DNA of 64,000 bases, from NCBI RefSeq assembly GCF_019739195.1, contig NZ_JAHHDS010000002.1, positions 1 through 64,000 of the forward strand, in the 5' to 3' direction. The stretch is from Microcella sp. (GTDB lineage: Bacteria; Actinomycetota; Actinomycetes; Actinomycetales; Microbacteriaceae). Position 1 is the stretch's first letter. Each line of letters opens with the position of its first letter. Shown here piece by piece: positions 18,523 to 26,799 of the stretch. The position numbers were made by a program, and so were the translations under genes. The notes below the pieces were generated by a model. It worked only from the letters and a program-made list of their open reading frames with translations. It had not been told where the DNA came from and made no database searches.

Positions 18523-19405
18523 AGTCGGCTCCCAGGTTCACGAGGTTCTCGTCGTTCCAATTCTCGGCGGTCCAGCGCACGGTGAGCTCGCCGAGCGGCT
18601 CGAGCTGCTCGAAGCCCACGGCCGCGTTGCGATACAGCTCGAGCAGCGCGAGAAAGCGCGCGACGATGACGCCCTTGATCTCGGCTCCGGCGATGAGCTG
18701 GCGAAAGGTGAGCGGTTCGCCCTGCCGCAGCAGGGCGACGACGTGCGCGGCCTGTTCGCGGATCGAGACGAGCGGAGCGTGCAAGTGATCGAGGCCGACT
18801 GTCGGAATCTCGCGCGGCGTGAGAGCGAGCAGCGCCAGAGCCGCGAAGTCGTCGAGGCTCAGCGTCCACTTCAGTTCAGGTGTCGTCTCGCGGAACTGAT
18901 CTTCGAGCCGCACCGAGCGCACGTGCCGCCGCCCCTCGGCCTCAATGCCGCTCGCGAACCAGGCCGAGACCTCTTTGAACGCCCGGTACTGCAGCAGTCG
19001 AGCGAACAGTAGGTCGCGCGCTTCGAGCAGTGCGACGTCTTCGGCATCGACGAGCTCGCCCTGCGGCAGCAGACTCGCGATCTTGAGATCGAGCAGCGTC
19101 ACAGCGACGACGAGAAACTCACTCGCCTGATCGAGGCCGTCGCTGTCGTACCCGTCACCCGTGTCGAGAGCGCGCAGGTAGGAGAGGAACTCGTCGGTGA
19201 CGGCGCTCAAGCTCACTTCGGTGATGTCGAGCTCACGCTTGGTGATGAGGCTGAGCAGCAGGTCGAACGGGCCGTCGAAGTCGTCGAGGGTGACGCGGAA
19301 CCCTGCGGGAGCATCCGTCGGCACGTCGCTCGGCACGCTCGCGGGCGACAGCGTCGACGTCACGCCCGCTGCCCCACCCGCCGACCGCTCAGGCGACCTG
19401 GCCAC
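18512..19405 (-). CDS. scpA: Segregation and condensation protein A
   Basis: 297 aa, the kleisin subunit of bacterial condensin. The N-terminal Smc-binding part has FDGPFDLLLSLITKRELDITEVSL (about 43-66), then SEFLVVAVTLLDLKIASLLP. The C-terminal winged helix contains EIKGVIVARFLALLELYRN. The first 35 residues are a poorly conserved Ser/Pro-rich lead. It overlaps parA by 17 bases. Confidence 0.96.
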   Translation of the reverse strand: MARSPERSAGGAAGVTSTLSPASVPSDVPTDAPAGFRVTLDDFDGPFDLLLSLITKRELDITEVSLSAVTDEFLSYLRALDTGDGYDSDGLDQASEFLVVAVTLLDLKIASLLPQGELVDAEDVALLEARDLLFARLLQYRAFKEVSAWFASGIEAEGRRHVRSVRLEDQFRETTPELKWTLSLDDFAALALLALTPREIPTVGLDHLHAPLVSIREQAAHVVALLRQGEPLTFRQLIAGAEIKGVIVARFLALLELYRNAAVGFEQLEPLGELTVRWTAENWNDENLVNLGADYGQ

Positions 19406-20276
19406 GGGCGATCAGTTCTCGGGCGAGCTGGCGATAGGCGGCGGCCGCGGGGTGGTCGGGCGCAAACGTCGTGATGGGTGCGCCCGCGACCGTCGCGTCG
19501 GGAAACTTCACGGTGCGGCCGATGACCGTCTCGAGCACCTGCTCGCCAAAGGTCTCGACGACGCGCTCGAGCACCTCGCGCGAGTGCAGCGTGCGCGCGT
19601 CGTACATCGTGGCGAGAATGCCGTCGAGCTGAATGGCCGGGTTCAGGCGGTCGCGCACCTTGTCGATCGTCTCGACGAGCAGGGCGACTCCGCGCAGGGC
19701 GAAGTACTCGCACTCGAGCGGAATGAGCACGCCGTGCGCCGCCGTGAGCGCGTTGACCGTGAGCAGGCCGAGGCTCGGCTGGCAGTCAATGAGAATGACG
19801 TCGTAGTCGGGCACGACCGGCGCAAGCACGCGGGCCAGAATCTGCTCACGCGCGACCTCGTTGACGAGGTGCACCTCAGCCGCGCTCAGGTCGATGTTGG
19901 CGGGAATGAGGTGCAGGTTCTTCGTCGCCGTCTGCTGCACCGCGCGGCGCGCATCTTTCTCGCGGCCGAGCAGCAGATCGTAGATCGTGATGACGTCGTG
20001 GCTCGGCATGCCGAGACCCGCCGACAGCGCGCCCTGCGGGTCGAAGTCGATGACCAGCACCTTGCGGCCGTACTCGGCGAGCGCCGCACCCAGACTGATG
20101 GTGGTCGTCGTCTTGCCGACGCCGCCCTTCTGGTTGCACAGGGCGATGATGCGGGCCGGGCCGTGGCCTTTCAGCGGGGCCGGTTCGGGAAAGTCGCGCA
20201 AGGGGCGACCGGTCGGGCCGGGCATGAGCGCGTCGAAACCCGCGAGCTCTGCTCCGTCACCCCGATCGCCTGCCAT
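19389..20276 (-). CDS. ParA-family ATPase
   Basis: 295 aa. The deviant Walker A motif KGGVGKT is at 50-56, with FDPQGALSAGLG and the Walker B-type VILIDCQPSLGLLTVNAL. It is the second, scp-linked ParA of actinobacteria (position of Rv1708), not the parAB pair near oriC, and no parB follows. The N-terminus has about 40 extra residues. It is likely membrane- or nucleoid-associated positioning machinery working with ScpAB. The leaderless-type -10 TAGACT sits 8 bases before the ATG. Confidence 0.93.
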   Translation of the reverse strand: MAGDRGDGAELAGFDALMPGPTGRPLRDFPEPAPLKGHGPARIIALCNQKGGVGKTTTTISLGAALAEYGRKVLVIDFDPQGALSAGLGMPSHDVITIYDLLLGREKDARRAVQQTATKNLHLIPANIDLSAAEVHLVNEVAREQILARVLAPVVPDYDVILIDCQPSLGLLTVNALTAAHGVLIPLECEYFALRGVALLVETIDKVRDRLNPAIQLDGILATMYDARTLHSREVLERVVETFGEQVLETVIGRTVKFPDATVAGAPITTFAPDHPAAAAYRQLARELIARGQVA

Positions 20277-20290: not shown

Positions 20291-20350
20291 GTGACCGTCG
20301 TGGCCTGCGCCGGGGCGCCTCGCGGGGCCCGGTGATGACTGCTGCCGTGG

Positions 20351-20356
20351 TTGACT
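20351..20356 (+). promoter_or_regulatory. TTGACT box, paralogue 1
   Basis: TTGACT lies 6 bases before ATG 20363, preceded by TGG (extended -10 TGn). The same box at the same place occurs before all five paralogues. A TTG here would also be an in-frame start; that is rejected because boxes 3 and 4 are out of frame. Confidence 0.55.
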
Positions 20357-20362
20357 GCTGAC

Positions 20363-21004
20363 ATGCGCGACCCCCTGTCGATGGCCGACGAGCGGCAGCT
20401 CGCCGAGTGGGCGTTCGGCCGCGCTCGCGATGCCGCAGATCGCGAGCGGGCCGAGGCCGCCCTGCGCGAACTCGCCCGACGGGCCGAGCCGGATCGCGCC
20501 GAGGGTCACGACGCCTCCCCCGAGCCCGACTCTGCCCCCCGCCACCGGGTGCTGCGCCTGGTGGTCGCCGTTGCCGGAGTCATGACGCTTGCCGCCATCG
20601 GCGTGATTTCCCTCGTGCTCTCGACCTCGAGCCCCGATGATTCACTCTCGATCTTCGCCCGCGATCCGAGCCCGCTGGAGCTCGACATGAGTGAGTTGGT
20701 GAGGCAGGGCGGACTCGGCGACGACGCGGAGGCGCGGATTCTCACGGACGGCGAGTTCGGCACCGTGATTGCCGTGCGGTACAGCGCCCTCTCGTCGCAC
20801 TCTTCGGGCACGGTGTGCGTGGCCATCGTCGAGTTCGCGGCCGTGAGCGACGCATCGTGCAAGCCGGTGCACCAGTTCACGCTCAGCGGACTCACCGCGA
20901 CTCTAGACGGCGTCACTGGGCTGATCTCCGTCGACTGGGGTCCGCAAGGCGACGCGCAGATCAGGGGGCCGGGCGACTTCGACGTGGGGCCTTCCGGCGG
21001 CTGA
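20363..21004 (+). CDS. One-pass membrane protein, paralogue 1 of 5 (short form)
   Basis: 213 aa; family not recognised. The cytosolic N-terminus carries DERQLAEWAFGRA (about 9-21), followed by an Ala/Arg/Glu-rich helix to about 45. A transmembrane helix spans 63-87. Outside comes SIFARDPSPLELD (97-108), then one Cys-pair domain (C152 in VCVAIVEF and C166) closing with DWGPQGD (191-197). It ends there, so it lacks the second Cys-pair domain of the other four. The orientation is opposite to parA. Export of the C-terminal part and a disulfide are inferences. Confidence 0.8.
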   Translation: MRDPLSMADERQLAEWAFGRARDAADRERAEAALRELARRAEPDRAEGHDASPEPDSAPRHRVLRLVVAVAGVMTLAAIGVISLVLSTSSPDDSLSIFARDPSPLELDMSELVRQGGLGDDAEARILTDGEFGTVIAVRYSALSSHSSGTVCVAIVEFAAVSDASCKPVHQFTLSGLTATLDGVTGLISVDWGPQGDAQIRGPGDFDVGPSGG

Positions 21005-21019
21005 TCGACGCGCTCGTGG

Positions 21020-21025
21020 TTGACT
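21020..21025 (+). promoter_or_regulatory. TTGACT box, paralogue 2
   Basis: TTGACT preceded by TGG, 6 bases before GTG 21032 and only 15 bases after the previous stop codon. This suggests separate initiation for each gene of the array. Confidence 0.55.
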
Positions 21026-21031
21026 GCCCTG

Positions 21032-22144
21032 GTGAGTGACGATCTCTCGGCAGTCGACGACGCGCAACTCGAGCGCTGGGCGTATGGTCGCGCGGGTGGA
21101 GACGACAACCGCGCGCAGGCCGCCCAGCTCGAACTCGCGCGACGCGCGGAGGCCACCCGCGCCGCGCAGGCCGAGGCTGAGCGCATCGAGGCTGAACGTG
21201 CGGAGGCTGCCCGACGCGCGGCAGAGCTGTCGGGCGACGACAAGACAGCGTCCGCGCATCCGCCCCTCACCGACAACGAACGTCGACACCGCAGACGGAT
21301 GCTCGCCACCGGCTGGGCCGGAGTCGCCGCCGCCGCGCTCGCGCTCGTCGGAGGCGTTGCCGTGCTGAGCCAGCCCGATCCTGACCCCCTCGCGATCTTC
21401 GAGCGGCCCGCAACCGAGCGCGACCTCCTGTGGGCGGAGCGGCTGCCAGCGAACGGTCTCGCGGGCGTCACGCTCGGCCCGCGTGTCGTCGACCTCGAGA
21501 ACGGCATGATCGCGATCGCCTTCCGCGCGGCAGCCGTGGCCGACGGCACGAGCACCGAGTGGGACCCGTACTGCCTGGTTGTCAGTGATCCAAAGAGACC
21601 GGACGAACTCTGGACAGTGGGAGGAGCATGCGTCTCTCCCGAGCAGTTCGCACGCCAAGGCCTCATCGCACCGTTGTCGGCGTCGGCGTCGGACGGCACG
21701 ATCGGTCCCGACTCCGCTCGCTGGGGTCCGATCGGGGCGCCTCGACTCGAGCAGGGAGTCGCGGTCGACTTCGCTGACCTCGTAGGCACCAGCGTCATCG
21801 ATCGCATGGTCTACACGGATCCGGAACCCGACACGAGCATCGTTGACGACCCGTCGCGCCTGCTGCTCGGGCCGACCACTCTGCTCGCAGGCGAAACTGC
21901 CGACTCGAACAGCTACGTCTTGGCATCGACCTACCTGCTGCGCAGCGAGACCGAGGGCGGCCAGCCCACATTCTGCGTGCGCGTCGGTGCCGACGACGGC
22001 ACCTCGTCGACCGCGTGCGCCCTGCTCAGCGCGGTGCGACAGGCTGGCATCGACGTGCCGATCAGCGCCGGGGGCAATACCTGGAACATTCGCATCGACC
22101 CCGACGGCCCGAACCGGCAAGACACGCTCGAACTGCTCAATTGA
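21032..22144 (+). CDS. One-pass membrane protein, paralogue 2 of 5
   Basis: 370 aa; family not recognised. [13 protein letters not shown] is at 9-21, followed by a long heptad-like Ala/Glu/Arg helix (28-68) likely to form a coiled coil. TM is at 91-113, then AIFERPATERD (121-131). Outer domain 1 has C181 and C200 and ends ARWGPIGA (229-236). Outer domain 2 has C315 (TFCVRVG) and C329 and ends IDPDGP. The stretch [20 protein letters not shown] through AIFER is almost identical to paralogue 5, so these two are the closest pair. Start GTG 21032 aligns with the start of paralogue 5. Confidence 0.8.
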   Translation: MSDDLSAVDDAQLERWAYGRAGGDDNRAQAAQLELARRAEATRAAQAEAERIEAERAEAARRAAELSGDDKTASAHPPLTDNERRHRRRMLATGWAGVAAAALALVGGVAVLSQPDPDPLAIFERPATERDLLWAERLPANGLAGVTLGPRVVDLENGMIAIAFRAAAVADGTSTEWDPYCLVVSDPKRPDELWTVGGACVSPEQFARQGLIAPLSASASDGTIGPDSARWGPIGAPRLEQGVAVDFADLVGTSVIDRMVYTDPEPDTSIVDDPSRLLLGPTTLLAGETADSNSYVLASTYLLRSETEGGQPTFCVRVGADDGTSSTACALLSAVRQAGIDVPISAGGNTWNIRIDPDGPNRQDTLELLN

Positions 22145-22148
22145 CCGT

Positions 22149-22169
22149 GCACTCCTCTGCGGGGAGTGC
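22149..22169 (+). other. Short hairpin between paralogues 2 and 3
   Basis: GCACTCC (22149-22155) pairs with GGAGTGC (22163-22169) around a 7-base loop. No T-run follows. It sits directly before the TTGACT box of paralogue 3 and could be a weak terminator or a regulatory structure. Confidence 0.4.
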
Positions 22170-22175
22170 TTGACT
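22170..22175 (+). promoter_or_regulatory. TTGACT box, paralogue 3
   Basis: TTGACT preceded by TGC, 7 bases before ATG 22183. The TTG is out of frame with this gene, which argues that the box is a DNA element and not a start codon. Confidence 0.55.
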
Positions 22176-22182
22176 GTGCGTC

Positions 22183-23355
22183 ATGAGCGAGGATCCCTCG
22201 ACCGCTGACCTTGCGGTGGTCGACGACGCGCAGCTCGCGGCGTGGGCCTACGGGCGCGCTTCGTCGGCCGACGAGATCGATCGCGCGCACCGCGCAGCGC
22301 TCGAGCTCGCTCGACGGGCTGAGCTCGCGGTTTCCAGCGCCGCCGCGCAGACCGCAGGCGCCCCGCGCGCCGCCGCTCGTGCTGCGGCCCCTCACGAAAC
22401 CGGCACACGCACCAACGCAGAGCCGATCGAGCATGAGGACGAGCCCGAAGCCGGCATCAGCATCCGCGGGCGCATCGCGATCGGCGCGGGAGTCGCGGTG
22501 CTGCTGATCGGCGCCGTCATCGCCAGTCAGGCGCTGCTCGCCCCGCGCCCGTCGACGGCGACCTCGCTCGAGATCTTCGACCGAGCGGAGACCGCCGACG
22601 AGCGCGCACTCATTGGACTCTTCGAACGTGCGGGCGAACGGGTCAGCCTCGGGCCGCGCGAACTGGGTGACGTCGGCTTCGGCACGATCGTCGCGTACCG
22701 CTCGCTCGTCAACTCTTCGGGCGTGCAAGAGCCGACGCTCGATCTCGTCTGCGTCGCCGCCGCCGAGTTCACGCAGCGCACGCAGAACACGACGATCTCG
22801 AACCCGACGTGCGTAGCGCGCGCGGTGTTCGAGCAGCGGGGCATCACGACGACCCTCTATGGCATCGGCGGACAGTATGACGTCGAGTGGGGGCCGCAAG
22901 GCAGCGCCGAGCTCGACGTACTCATCTCTGAGTCGCAGCGACTCGTCATGGAGCCGGGCTACGAGGCGATCTTCATCGATCGGCCGGCGTCCGAGCTCGA
23001 TGAGCAGTACGTCGCCGAGCAGCTGCTGCTCGAGAGCGCCGGAGTGAACATCACACAGTTCAGAACGCTCAATCCCGTCGAAGCCTTCCTCGTCGACAAC
23101 CCCGATTCGCGCAACGAGGTGCCACCCGACGCCGAATGGCTCGCCGCGTACACGGGCGAAGCACTCGACGGCTCGAACAAGCGTGCATGCCTGGCGATCG
23201 TCGCCGCCGGCGAGCAACTCGAGAACAGCTGCCGTCCGATCGAGGAGATGGCCTCGGGAACGATCACGCTGCAGTTTGAGCGCGGTGATTGGCGCATGCT
23301 CACCTCGTGGGATCCCAGCGGCGACATCTCTACGTTTGCCTCAAATTCGGAGTGA
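22183..23355 (+). CDS. One-pass membrane protein, paralogue 3 of 5
   Basis: 390 aa; family not recognised. DDAQLAAWAYGRA is at 14-26, followed by an Ala-rich helix and a Glu/Thr linker. TM is at 97-118 and the juxtamembrane motif SLEIFDRAETADERA at 128-142. Outer domain 1 has C190 (LVCVAAAEF) and C210 and closes with EWGPQGS (235-241). Outer domain 2 has C336 (ACLAIVAAG) and C350 and closes with SWDPSGD (375-381). ATG 22183 has no Shine-Dalgarno sequence, which fits leaderless expression from the TTGACT box. Confidence 0.8.
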   Translation: MSEDPSTADLAVVDDAQLAAWAYGRASSADEIDRAHRAALELARRAELAVSSAAAQTAGAPRAAARAAAPHETGTRTNAEPIEHEDEPEAGISIRGRIAIGAGVAVLLIGAVIASQALLAPRPSTATSLEIFDRAETADERALIGLFERAGERVSLGPRELGDVGFGTIVAYRSLVNSSGVQEPTLDLVCVAAAEFTQRTQNTTISNPTCVARAVFEQRGITTTLYGIGGQYDVEWGPQGSAELDVLISESQRLVMEPGYEAIFIDRPASELDEQYVAEQLLLESAGVNITQFRTLNPVEAFLVDNPDSRNEVPPDAEWLAAYTGEALDGSNKRACLAIVAAGEQLENSCRPIEEMASGTITLQFERGDWRMLTSWDPSGDISTFASNSE

Positions 23356-23405
23356 GTCGAGCCTGGTGGAGTGGGTGACCCCTGGCCCTTTCGGGTCGGT
23401 GAGGG

Positions 23406-23411
23406 TTGACT
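23406..23411 (+). promoter_or_regulatory. TTGACT box, paralogue 4
   Basis: TTGACT preceded by GGG, 7 bases before ATG 23419. This is the only one of the five without the TGn extension. Confidence 0.5.
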
Positions 23412-23418
23412 GGCGGCT

Positions 23419-24570
23419 ATGACATCGCCGTCCGAACCGGATGCTGAGCTCGACCATGTCGTCAGAAACCTGTTCGACGTCGAGCTCGAGCGCCTGGCGT
23501 TCGGCCGCGCTGAGACCGACGACGAGCAGCGGTGGGCGACCGCGGCGGCCGCCGAACTCGCGCGGCGCGAGGCCGATGGGCCCGCTCGCCGTGGCGACGC
23601 GGTCGAGATTGAGCCCCCTCGACCGGCACGAGTGCGCGACCAGCGTGCTTCGCGGGCGCGCGCGACGCCAACGGCCGCGGCTCGGTCGAGCAGCGAGCGC
23701 TCCCGCATCGACCGCGAGCGTGACGCCCGACCCTGGTGGCGGCAGTCGTGGGCGGTGATCGCCGCGAGCGTGCTAGCCATCATCGCCGCCACGAGCATCG
23801 CGCCCGCGCTGACGGAGACCCCGGTCGGAGCATCCTCTCTCGAGGTCTTCGCCCGCGAGGCGACCGCGCAGGAGCGCAACCTCGCCGCCCAGCTGCAGCG
23901 CGAGGGCCTGCGCCTGAGCGTGACGCCGCGCATCATCGCCGAGCGCGACGGCGACCAGGTGCTGGCCTACCGGTTCATCGTGACTTCGCCCGGCGAGCGC
24001 GCGCGCAACGAGGTCTGCGTGCTGCTGCTCGACGAGCGCGCGCTGGGGCTGCCGACCTGCGTCGACCGCCTGAGTTTCGTGAGCGACGGGATGCTCGCGA
24101 CGCTCTCAGGGCAGCAAAGGCTGTTCGTCGTGCAGTGGGGGCCGACCGGCGGGCCCAGCGTCTCGGTGCTACCGCCCGACGACCCGGCGCCGCGCTACCC
24201 CGAGTCGGATGCGGCCGAGGCCTTCTTCGCGGGCGAGCAGAGCGAGGCCGATCTCGCGTACTCCGAGGCGCTGCGGGCGCTGCACCCCGACGACCGGCTC
24301 ATCGTGCGCGTGCTCGCGACCACTCCGACGTGGGATGCCGTCGGCGCCCTCGTCGCCTGGGCCGACACGGGGCTCTGGTCGTACTGCGTGCACCTTTTTC
24401 AGCCTGATCTCGAGCTCGCGCCGCAGGTCGGCGCGAGCGTCACGTGCGCCGGTCTCGACGCCTTCGAGCGCGATGGCCTCGTCGCGCAAGCGCGCACGTC
24501 TGACGGCAGCCTGCTCATCGAGTGGCAACCCGACGACACCGTCATGGTGCAAGAGCTCGGCGGGCCCTGA
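23419..24570 (+). CDS. One-pass membrane protein, paralogue 4 of 5
   Basis: 383 aa; family not recognised and the most diverged copy. The N-terminal motif reads VELERLAFGRAETDDEQ (21-37), preceded by 20 extra residues. A basic Arg-rich stretch (70-109) leads into the TM (111-131). SLEVFAREATAQERNLAAQL is at 140-159. Outer domain 1 has C200 (EVCVLLLDE) and C214 and closes with QWGPTGG (239-245). Outer domain 2 has C323 (SYCVHLFQ) and C343 and closes with EWQPDD (368-373). Arg before and acidic residues after the helix support an N-in, C-out topology. Confidence 0.8.
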   Translation: MTSPSEPDAELDHVVRNLFDVELERLAFGRAETDDEQRWATAAAAELARREADGPARRGDAVEIEPPRPARVRDQRASRARATPTAAARSSSERSRIDRERDARPWWRQSWAVIAASVLAIIAATSIAPALTETPVGASSLEVFAREATAQERNLAAQLQREGLRLSVTPRIIAERDGDQVLAYRFIVTSPGERARNEVCVLLLDERALGLPTCVDRLSFVSDGMLATLSGQQRLFVVQWGPTGGPSVSVLPPDDPAPRYPESDAAEAFFAGEQSEADLAYSEALRALHPDDRLIVRVLATTPTWDAVGALVAWADTGLWSYCVHLFQPDLELAPQVGASVTCAGLDAFERDGLVAQARTSDGSLLIEWQPDDTVMVQELGGP

Positions 24571-24592
24571 GCACGCGCACGCGCGCCCGTGA

Positions 24593-24598
24593 TTGACT
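24593..24598 (+). promoter_or_regulatory. TTGACT box, paralogue 5
   Basis: TTGACT preceded by TGA, 6 bases before GTG 24605, in the 34-bp gap after paralogue 4. Confidence 0.55.
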
Positions 24599-24604
24599 GA
24601 CCGC

Positions 24605-25750
24605 GTGAGCGAGCATCTCTCGGGGGTCGATGACGCGCAGCTCGAGCGCTGGGCCTACGGGCGCGCAACGACTCCCGACGAGCAGTCGCGCGCCGCGTTC
24701 GCCGCCGCCGAGCTGCAGCGCAGAACTGGTGCCGAACGAGAGCGGGCGAAACTCGCCGAGGCCGAGCACGCCGCCGCCGACGCCCACGCCCGCGCCGTCG
24801 CGAACGGTGACGTGGACGACACCGCGAGCGAGCATCCAGAATTCCCGCTGACCGACGACGAACGCCGCCACCGGCGACGGATGCTCGCCACGGGTTGGGC
24901 CGGTGTCACCGCAGCCGCGCTCGCGCTCGTCGGAGGAGTCGCCGTGCTCAGCCAGGCCGACCCCGACCCGATGGCCATCTTCGAGCGCTCGGAGACGCAG
25001 CTCGACCGAAACTGGACGCAGAGGCTCGAGAGCTGGGGTTACGGGCCCCTCACGGCGGGCCCGCGCACGATCGAGGTAGGCGACGAGTACGTCGTCATCG
25101 CGACGCGCATCTCGACCGTTCCCGATGGTCGCAGCACAGCGTGGGACTCGTACTGTCTCCACGTCGCATCACCTGCATCGACCAACGACGGCTCATGGGG
25201 GCTCAGCACGGTGTGCTCCTACCCAGAGAAGTTCGAACGCGAAGGCCTCACACTGCCCGACCGCCCCTCCCGCACTGGGGGCGGCTTCGACACCGCTTTC
25301 TGGGGCCCCGGCGGCGAACCGCGCTTCTCTCGGAATGAGCCACTCTACGAAGAGACCGGCCTCGTCAGCAGCGTGCTCGATTGGATGTCGCTGCCCATGA
25401 GCGTCGACCCCGAGTCGCCCGGTGAGAACTTCATCGACGATCCAGAGCGACTACTGATGGGGCCCGCGGTCGTGCCCGTCATGTTCGAGGGTGACGCCGC
25501 CAGAGTGTTTCGCGACGTCGAGCTCGTGACGTCGGTTTTGCTGATCAGTGGTGAGCGGCCGGCCGACGGCCCCCTGCTGTGCGTGCATGTGGCGGTGGGC
25601 GACAGCGATCCGCGCATGCCCTGCACTGATCTCACCACTGCTCGCCGCGAGGGAGTCGAGGTTCCTTTCACGGTCGATGGCCGCACCCTGGTCGTCGCCA
25701 TTGCGCCAGACGGGCGCGACCGCAGTGACGCCGTGCGCCTGATCGGCTAG
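24605..25750 (+). CDS. One-pass membrane protein, paralogue 5 of 5
   Basis: 381 aa; family not recognised. [13 protein letters not shown] is at 9-21, a coiled-coil-prone Ala/Glu helix at 30-66, TM at 95-117 and [12 protein letters not shown] at 124-135. Outer domain 1 has C184 (SYCLHVAS) and C204 and closes with FWGPGGE (232-238). Outer domain 2 has C326 (LLCVHVAVG) and C340 and closes with IAPDGR. It pairs with paralogue 2 as the most recent duplication. Its stop overlaps the xerD stop on the other strand (CTAG), so the array is packed directly against the core gene. Confidence 0.8.
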
Positions 25751-26799
25751 AGCGCGCGCGGGTGGGCGGTCGCCCAGGCCTCGCGCACGGCATCGGCCGT
25801 CACGAGCGTGTAGAGCTGGGTCGTCGCGACCGACGCGTGGCCGAGAAGCTCTTGCACGACGCGCACGTCGGCTCCGCCCTCGAGCAGGTGAGTGGCGAAC
25901 GAGTGGCGCAGCGTGTGAGGCGAGAGCTCGGTGGTCAGGGATGCTCGGTGCGCAGCATCCCGAATCACCAACCACACGCTCTGCCGCGACAGGCGGGCGC
26001 CGCGCGCGCCTAAGAACAGTGCGGGAGTCGCCCGGCCCCGCGGTGAGAGCAGCGGACGCGAGCGCACGAGGTAGGCGTCGAGCGCCTCGCGGGCGTAGCG
26101 GCCGAGCGGCACGATGCGCTGCTTGCGGCCCTTACCGAAGAGCCGCACGGCATCGGCTGTCGCGCCGCCCTCGCCCATGATGTCGTCGACGTTGAGGTCG
26201 ACCGCCTCGCTCACCCGCGCGCCCGTCGCGTAGAGCAGTTCGAGCAGGGCCCGGTCGCGCAGGGCGATCGGGTCGTCGCCGCTGCAGGCGTCGAGCAGGC
26301 GCTCGACCTGGTCGATCGTGATGGCCTTCGGCAGGCGCTTCGGCTGCTTCGGCGGGCGCTGCTCGGCCGAGACGTCGCGCGGCGCCAGGCCCTCCTCGGC
26401 GAGAAACCGGTGCCAGCCGCGCACGCTCGACAGCATGCGCGCGGCGCTCGACGCACTGACACCGGCGCGGCCGTCGTCGGGCTCGCGCACCGCTGCGACG
26501 AAGGCCGAGACATCTGCCTCAGTGATGCTCGCCGGGTCATCGATGTCGCGCGCGGCCAGGTGCGCGAGGTAGCGCGCGAGGTCGCGGCGGTAGGCCGAGA
26601 CGGTGTGCGGCGAGCGTCCGCGCTCGAGCTGCACGTGCCGGAGGTACCGTTCGGCGGCCCCCGAGAGCGCGACAGGTACCTCGCGCTCGACCTCGTCGTT
26701 CGTTCTCGATGTCGCAACGCCCCGGTCGACGAGCCTGCCCACCGGCGTGTCGCGGCTCACCACCGGCGTGTCGCCGTCATCACCGGGGTGGGGCGACAC
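25747..26799 (-). CDS. xerD: Tyrosine recombinase XerD
   Basis: 350 aa, chromosome-dimer resolution at dif. The catalytic set is R195 (ATGARVSE), the Lys in GKGRKQR (near 223), H295 and R298 (SPHTLRHS), H321 ([11 protein letters not shown]) and Y330. Spacings from H295 onward equal those of E. coli XerD. The SAM-like core-binding domain is at about 45-140. An N-terminal extension of about 45 residues is unusual; a shorter start cannot be excluded. It lies 3 bp after the Nudix gene. Confidence 0.95.

Follow-up and report, generated by a model that had tools for sequence, protein, structure and literature searches.

Membrane-bound extracytoplasmic function (ECF) anti-sigma factors, among them RskA and RseA of class I and CnrY of class II, carry N-terminal cytosolic helices, a single transmembrane (TM) helix and a C-terminal extracytoplasmic domain. 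In class I a cognate ECF sigma gene nearby is usual, though not obligatory, and in class II (CnrY-like) factors two helices bind sigma2 and sigma4. The same order of parts is found in five tandem genes, here called A to E, that lie between parA and xerD in a Microcella sp. (assembly GCF_019739195.1, contig NZ_JAHHDS010000002.1; the window is the whole stretch of 64,000 nucleotides that we analysed). The array differs from these factors in having parA, scpA, scpB and xerD as immediate neighbours and no adjacent sigma gene, in giving no sequence match above cut-off, and in the two main cytosolic helices that models of proteins E and A contain, whereas PMC7406223 describes the class I N-terminal domain as four helices averaging 101 residues.

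In their arrangement the genes also resemble the staphylococcal tandem lipoproteins and the immunity arrays of the type VIIb secretion system (T7SSb). These are likewise tandem paralogues with variable copy number and mosaic divergence at a fixed locus, but they have another fold and another anchor and belong to another phylum; here, by comparison, a conserved cytosolic head appears to join in the shuffling. Judged by their sequences, the array proteins are an undescribed actinomycete family, and no description of them appeared in the titles and abstract openings of a limited survey of the open-access literature. We tentatively propose that the array encodes receptors or sensors that cross the membrane once and whose ectodomains can be exchanged.

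Architecture of the array

Each protein consists of a two-helix cytosolic head, a charged linker, one TM helix and a Cys-pair ectodomain that is present once (D1, gene A) or twice (D1 and D2, genes B to E). The five open reading frames (ORFs) stand in tandem on the + strand (20363-25750), with parA to the left and xerD to the right, so that array and parA are divergent and array and xerD convergent:

20363..21004, + strand: gene A, 213 aa, head, one TM helix (about aa 63-81), D1 only
21032..22144, + strand: gene B, 370 aa, head, TM helix (about aa 90-108), D1, D2
22183..23355, + strand: gene C, 390 aa, head, TM helix (about aa 95-113), D1, D2
23419..24570, + strand: gene D, 383 aa, head, TM helix (about aa 109-127), D1, D2; the copy least diverged from that of the relative G005
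24605..25750, + strand: gene E, 381 aa, head, TM helix (about aa 93-111), D1, D2; the copy most diverged from that of G005
19389..20276, - strand: parA, left flank of the interval, outside the array
25747..26799, - strand: xerD, right flank of the interval, outside the array

Pairwise identity among the five proteins is 27-48%, and 32 columns are invariant. These include, numbered as in P0001, L17, A21 and G23-R24-A25 of the head motif, F102 and R104 of IF(D/E/A)R, C156 and C170, and W196-G197-P198-x-G200. A hydrophobicity script found one hydrophobic stretch in each protein, in agreement with an earlier sequence-only reading of the locus, which had described five tandem genes of one architecture. 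That reading also took WGPxG as the closing motif. The Cys pair followed by WGPxG does end D1, but genes B to E continue behind it with D2, a diverged repeat of D1 (hhalign probability 96.2, E = 2.3e-9). AlphaFold models of proteins A and E were fairly confident (mean predicted local distance difference test score 81.5 and 79.3, respectively) and, together with this alignment, indicate that the two ectodomain copies are of one family. The main cytosolic helices span residues 10-18 and 24-68 in E and 10-18 and 24-49 in A, with an additional short helix at 2-5 or 4-7. The features that define the family (an L..A.GR head, one TM helix, IF.R, a Cys pair and W.P.G) are present in all five genes, and 66-row and 40-row profiles were built from the family so defined.

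A profile made from the five array proteins necessarily found its own genes, at E-values from 4.4e-61 (gene A, whose match was split in two) to 1.6e-161; the best place beyond them in the same genome reached 0.0079. On other genomes of the genus, which were not used in building the profile, matches went down to 1.4e-122. The GC content of about 70%, the many overlapping ORFs in the window and the fragmented assemblies of several relatives raise the question of spurious ORFs or misassembly. With homology across independent genomes, single-contig ones included, at the same place and with the same upstream element, and with two fairly confident models, we regard such an artefact as hardly credible.

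Uneven divergence of the modules

To describe divergence we used one genome pair, the window and G005, the latter a fragmented assembly. The flanking genes are close between the two (parA 98% identical at a synonymous divergence, dS, of 0.24; xerD 92%, dS 0.30), as is gene D (90%, dS 0.32). Gene C is 95% identical in D1 (dS 0.30) and 57% in D2 (dS 0.76), D1 of gene B is 64% identical (dS 0.77), gene A 61% overall (dS 0.77), and gene E falls to 49% in D1 and 29% in D2 (dS 1.30). In each of the five orthologue pairs head identity lies at 80-91%, and for the ectodomain copies it ranges from 29 to 96%. The ectodomains, which had been called variable from the window alone, thus vary far more than the heads and the flanking genes.

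The segments with low protein identity are also those in which third-position identity drops; where D1 meets D2 in gene C, for instance, it goes from about 0.8 down to about 0.6. Nonsynonymous divergence (dN) was lower than dS in all segments for which it was measured. Because silent sites diverge as well and dN is smaller than dS, replacement of segments by diverged DNA is favoured over selection on amino acids, and the variation of the ectodomains looks largely like such replacement. Diversifying selection, sought by dN/dS, was not found. Duplication followed by diversifying selection is therefore too simple an account of the variation, which qualifies the earlier suggestion of repeated duplication with selection. 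Gene conversion of the linker-TM region between genes B and E was considered and is unsupported, since the two comparisons disagree: B and E of the window share 121 of 150 bases there and E of the window and of G005 share 111 of 150, whereas at third positions the order is reversed (30 of 50 and 35 of 50).

These data also bear on whether the proteins are structural or accessory envelope proteins, such as a cell-wall or division scaffold, that sense nothing and drift, weakly constrained, in an array next to xerD that is prone to recombination. Such a role would suit the weak conservation of the outside parts and the weak NCBIfam SepX/GlpR rows in three of 66 family members (best 0.0012). It is unlikely, however, as most family genes of the genus retain both the head motifs and the upstream element and as dN below dS in every segment indicates constraint on the array genes.

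Proposed re-pairing of heads and ectodomains

In best-hit tables, A-type heads (with a stretch like VTDRELAEAALRELARR) are joined to an A-type ectodomain in G000 and G005, to a B-type one in G015, G022 and G011, and to a C-type one in G007 and G009. D1 of the gene E type is paired with two unlike kinds of D2. Trees were built from 28 D1, 25 D2 and 28 head sequences, representing 28 of the 30 family genes at 13 loci of the window's clade; the two genes without the WGP pattern were left out, as were the other 45 of the 75 family genes. In approximately unbiased (AU) tests, a clade uniting the seven A-head genes was rejected by the D1 data (p = 1e-30). The head data rejected (p = 0.0023) a clade made up of the six C-ectodomain genes, a grouping that D1 gives at 91/92 (not starred), and the D2 data rejected the pair G000.5 and G015.4 (p = 2.25e-6), which D1 supports at 99/84. 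The partly conflicting trees of heads, D1 and D2 suggest that modules have been re-paired by recombination. Exchange of D1 against A-type heads is well supported, and exchange elsewhere is more weakly so.

Distribution at the parA-xerD locus

In a neighbour scan XerD exceeded the TIGR02225 cut-off (334.3 against 329.6 bits), ScpB that of TIGR00281, and ScpA and the ParA-type ATPase their Pfam cut-offs, which confirms the flanking genes as first named; scpA and scpB are left-side neighbours together with parA. The five-row profile passed an E-value of 0.01 in 25 of 26 genomes of the genus (own included) and 1e-10 in 22, compared to one of 34 genomes outside the genus, which passed 0.01 weakly. 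Four genus genomes gave no strong match. The contig that carries parA stops at the locus in G003 and G025, no parA exceeded the threshold in G020, and in G001 the interval is empty, with 68 bp (L085, contig C5, between 5584 and 5652).

parA and xerD lie on one stretch in 19 genus genomes (own included), and 18 of these intervals hold family genes. By our own codon-score gene calls, which left one part of the G018 array uncalled and set some starts wrongly (first gene of L050 and of L058), copy number ranges from 0 to 5 across the 19 intervals and from 1 to 5 in the occupied ones. G004 retains only fragments, its sole copy being broken into two frames (L054, contig C1, about 1543444-1544570). 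G006, in which the array is spread over two contigs, appears to carry six family genes or more, and non-family genes also stand inside the intervals of G016, G007, G009 and G011.

In most of the genomes searched from other genera of the same bacterial family (Microbacteriaceae), parA and xerD are close neighbours, which supports, for this bacterial family, the conserved core order stated by the sequence-only reading. Among 20 long parA-xerD intervals of these genera, picked by eye and not strictly the longest (G072, G075 and G091 were among those left out), none of the ORFs listed gave an E-value below 0.76 with the five-row profile. The tandem array at parA-xerD was found in one genus only. 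The idea of a lineage-specific insertion therefore applies to the array at this locus but not to the protein family, which has homologues of the same layout elsewhere in other genera.

Within the genus, further family genes were seen away from parA-xerD at L045 (G016), L046 (G018) and, as a fragment only, L095 (G015). The upstream element is kept at L045 and has one base changed at L046.

Relatives outside the genus and the anti-sigma comparison

At E = 0.001 the 66-row genus profile matched at least 94 of 199 genomes of the bacterial family, among which are four of the genus. At 1e-10 at least 17 of 195 non-genus genomes passed, mostly with matches spanning head or linker to D1; many of the weaker rows cover the TM stretch only. 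These counts, like those of the 40-row profile below, are lower bounds, with at most 10 candidates scored per genome (66-row) or at most 7 (40-row). The non-genus ORFs share the layout, for example LRRIAFGRTSTDDEAAAAEQAQRELARA before the TM helix, a Cys-pair domain and then W, and by eye their neighbours vary by locus. Across 394 genomes of the class, the 40-row profile matched at least 20 at 1e-6: the own genome, at least 13 others from its bacterial family, at least one from a different family of the order and at least five from a further family, f35.

At four of the five f35 loci found, an ECF-type sigma ORF lies directly upstream of the ectodomain relative, which puts the relative where a membrane-bound sigma regulator is usually found. 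The upstream sigma exceeds the SigE-family cut-off (TIGR02983) at L196 and L201, reaches 131.0 bits at L199 (under the 141.55 of TIGR02983 but above the general ECF cut-off), and has Pfam sigma-70 regions 2 and 4 at L198. At the fifth locus, L202, no sigma gene was seen beside the relative by eye, its neighbours being unscanned.

These loci are what would be explained if the array proteins were true anti-sigma factors, each head binding an ECF sigma factor in the manner of the short two-helix class II type (CnrY). The two-helix cytosolic head, single TM helix and ectodomain agree with this, and one of 66 family members weakly matches the NCBIfam 'antisigma' model NF052375 (0.0025). No sigma gene stands beside the array, however, and by eye the sigma-linked relatives lack the head motif in the region before the TM helix. 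A head profile found no anti-sigma factor among chain sequences of the PDB (best row 0.074, a ribonuclease). Nor do Sigma70-ECF matches follow array size: G023 has four array genes and five matches in all and G001 none and nine, counts that include long-frame matches resembling primary sigma factors. They speak against a dedicated sigma factor for each paralogue, and we consider the anti-sigma explanation quite unlikely.

In one other genus, a family member stands beside a gene of the bile acid:sodium symporter type (L193 by scan, L192 by eye) and another beside a short gene for which NCBIfam gave no row (L213).

Known families, folds and systems

No Pfam, NCBIfam or PHROG model reached its cut-off with the array proteins, and the sequence-only reading, which recognised no named family, is supported among the families searched. 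The CU044_5270 family (NF038083) partly matches gene A, from head to TM helix (19.8 bits), and two sigma-linked relatives (18.9 and 21.6 bits), but these scores are far under its curated cut-off of 100, genes B to E give no row, and one of 66 family members has a match at E ≤ 0.01. DUF3040 (PF11239) scored 14.2 bits with B and 13 with E around the TM helix only, against a gathering threshold of 24.7. In fold comparison there was no convincing match; weak rows to cystatin/PepSY-like (YpmB) and NTF2-like folds share a helix packed on a curved antiparallel sheet.

The main rival of the receptor or sensor proposal is a protective role outside the cell, in which anchored ectodomains would bind proteins of foreign origin (secreted hydrolases, bacteriocins, phage tail proteins) and render them harmless, and the head would be no more than an anchor or assembly tag. 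The heads, at 80-91% identity in five pairs, are more conserved than a mere anchor needs. PADLOC gave PD-T4-6 rows only, all weak (in 5, 1 and 1 of 66 members, best 5.9e-4), protein E matched nothing in the phage and plasmid records searched, and the fold matches lie below the level of kinship. A surface protection or immunity set is thus possible but somewhat doubtful. The absence of protein E from the same records also led us to reject a mobile origin.

A shared upstream element

A promoter-like element precedes each array gene:

20347..20357, + strand: GTGnTTGACTG, ahead of gene A
21016..21026, + strand: GTGnTTGACTG, ahead of gene B
22166..22176, + strand: GTGnTTGACTG, ahead of gene C
23402..23412, + strand: AGGnTTGACTG, ahead of gene D, without TG
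24589..24599, + strand: GTGnTTGACTG, ahead of gene E

Since the conserved TTGACT ends 6-7 bases ahead of each codon, the genes probably start at ATG 20363, GTG 21032, ATG 22183, ATG 23419 and GTG 24605. The TTG codons at 20351, 21020 and 24593 are probably not starts, being the first bases of the conserved element itself.

Among the 75 family genes of the genus, 51 neither overlap nor closely follow (10 bases) a preceding family gene. TTGACT stands just before the start in 41 of these 51, compared to one of the 24 coupled genes. Two of the ten exceptions are one base off TTGACT at an alternative start, L056 is two bases off, and most of the others without it are cut, fragments or of doubtful start. 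The consensus around 36 non-redundant sites is cGTGnTTGACTG, with no -35 signal; its hexamer is fixed by site selection, but the preceding GTG is not.

A sample of 464 kb of the own genome, which includes the window, has 389 predicted starts. The usual TAnnnT lies 5-8 bases upstream of 62 of them (against 2 and 3 in controls), and two of these 62 have a TG one base ahead of it. TTGACT precedes seven of the 389, five of them array genes, and TG precedes it in five of the seven; as one of the 20 stretches sampled was chosen for a known element match, the two non-array hits are if anything too many. In several genus members the element also lies ahead of genes for an ABC transporter ATPase (at L127 as the variant TTGACTC), a VIT1 protein, an EmrB-like major facilitator superfamily transporter and a flavin oxidoreductase, one of each kind being scanned and the others named by eye. 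A regulator site confined to the array was therefore rejected. Whole-genome counts of TTGACTG followed by a start are modestly above the reversed control in many genomes (15 against 8 in the own), so single non-array matches can be chance. TGnTTGACT(G) looks like a separate leaderless promoter class that is not limited to the array. Beyond the window, element loci are L127, L144, L148, L237, L241, L244-L246, L249, L252-L254, L257, L260-L269, L273, L274 and L276-L278.

Separately, TTGACTGGGAGCGTG recurs in five genus members and precedes open frames of 15-38 codons in the three that were fetched (L270, L271, L272). These sites may mark a small RNA or another non-coding gene.

Proposed function

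A receptor or sensor function, which the sequence-only reading had also suggested, is the best fit for proteins whose inner head is constrained and whose outer modules vary, with a single TM helix between the two. In this proposal the ectodomain, in one or two copies of one fold, would bind an extracytoplasmic ligand, for which a cell-wall fragment, a peptide, an enzyme or a foreign protein are candidates. The conserved two-helix head would relay the signal to, or recruit, a cytosolic partner common to the members with that head, and recombination in the tandem array would re-pair heads and ectodomains and change copy number. The contrast between heads (80-91%) and ectodomains (29-96%), the conflict between module trees, the copy number of 0 to 5, the sigma-linked relatives and the common element support it.

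Several observations weigh against this proposal. The empty interval of G001 indicates that the array is dispensable, and none of the flanking genes parA, scpA, scpB and xerD is a signalling partner. In the window's bacterial family, the ectodomain also occurs without a head behind a short leader with a lipobox-like cysteine (L204, L205, L206 with L214, L208), in proteins that we take to be lipoproteins from this pattern; it can therefore work without an inside signal. The AU tests used clades chosen after the similarity table was known, drew in part on the fragmented assemblies G005, G015, G007 and G011, and were not uniformly decisive: the head data gave no clear rejection of a clade of the five B-ectodomain genes (p = 0.071), D2 did not reject the four E genes (p = 0.108), and D1 did not reject the pair G005.5 and G015.4 given by D2 (p = 0.225). 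With five well assembled genomes (13 rows), the 46-column heads rejected nothing (p = 0.127 and 0.126), while D1 still rejected the A-head clade (p = 8.8e-34).

A more far-reaching version, which we find doubtful, would make the arrays a genus-wide recombining receptor repertoire. Head, D1 and D2 would be exchanged independently between tandem copies and species, coupling constant head outputs to ever new recognition domains, mostly under one unusual promoter class. If the modules are exchanged in this way, the locus would be a compact, fixed-site system that diversifies surface recognition in an actinobacterial genus while inner coupling stays constant, and would offer an uncomplicated setting in which to ask why surfaces diversify. 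Apart from this, the protein family is absent from the copies of Pfam and NCBIfam searched and yet has relatives in those 17 or more non-genus genomes, and the promoter-like class to which the upstream element points is directly testable.

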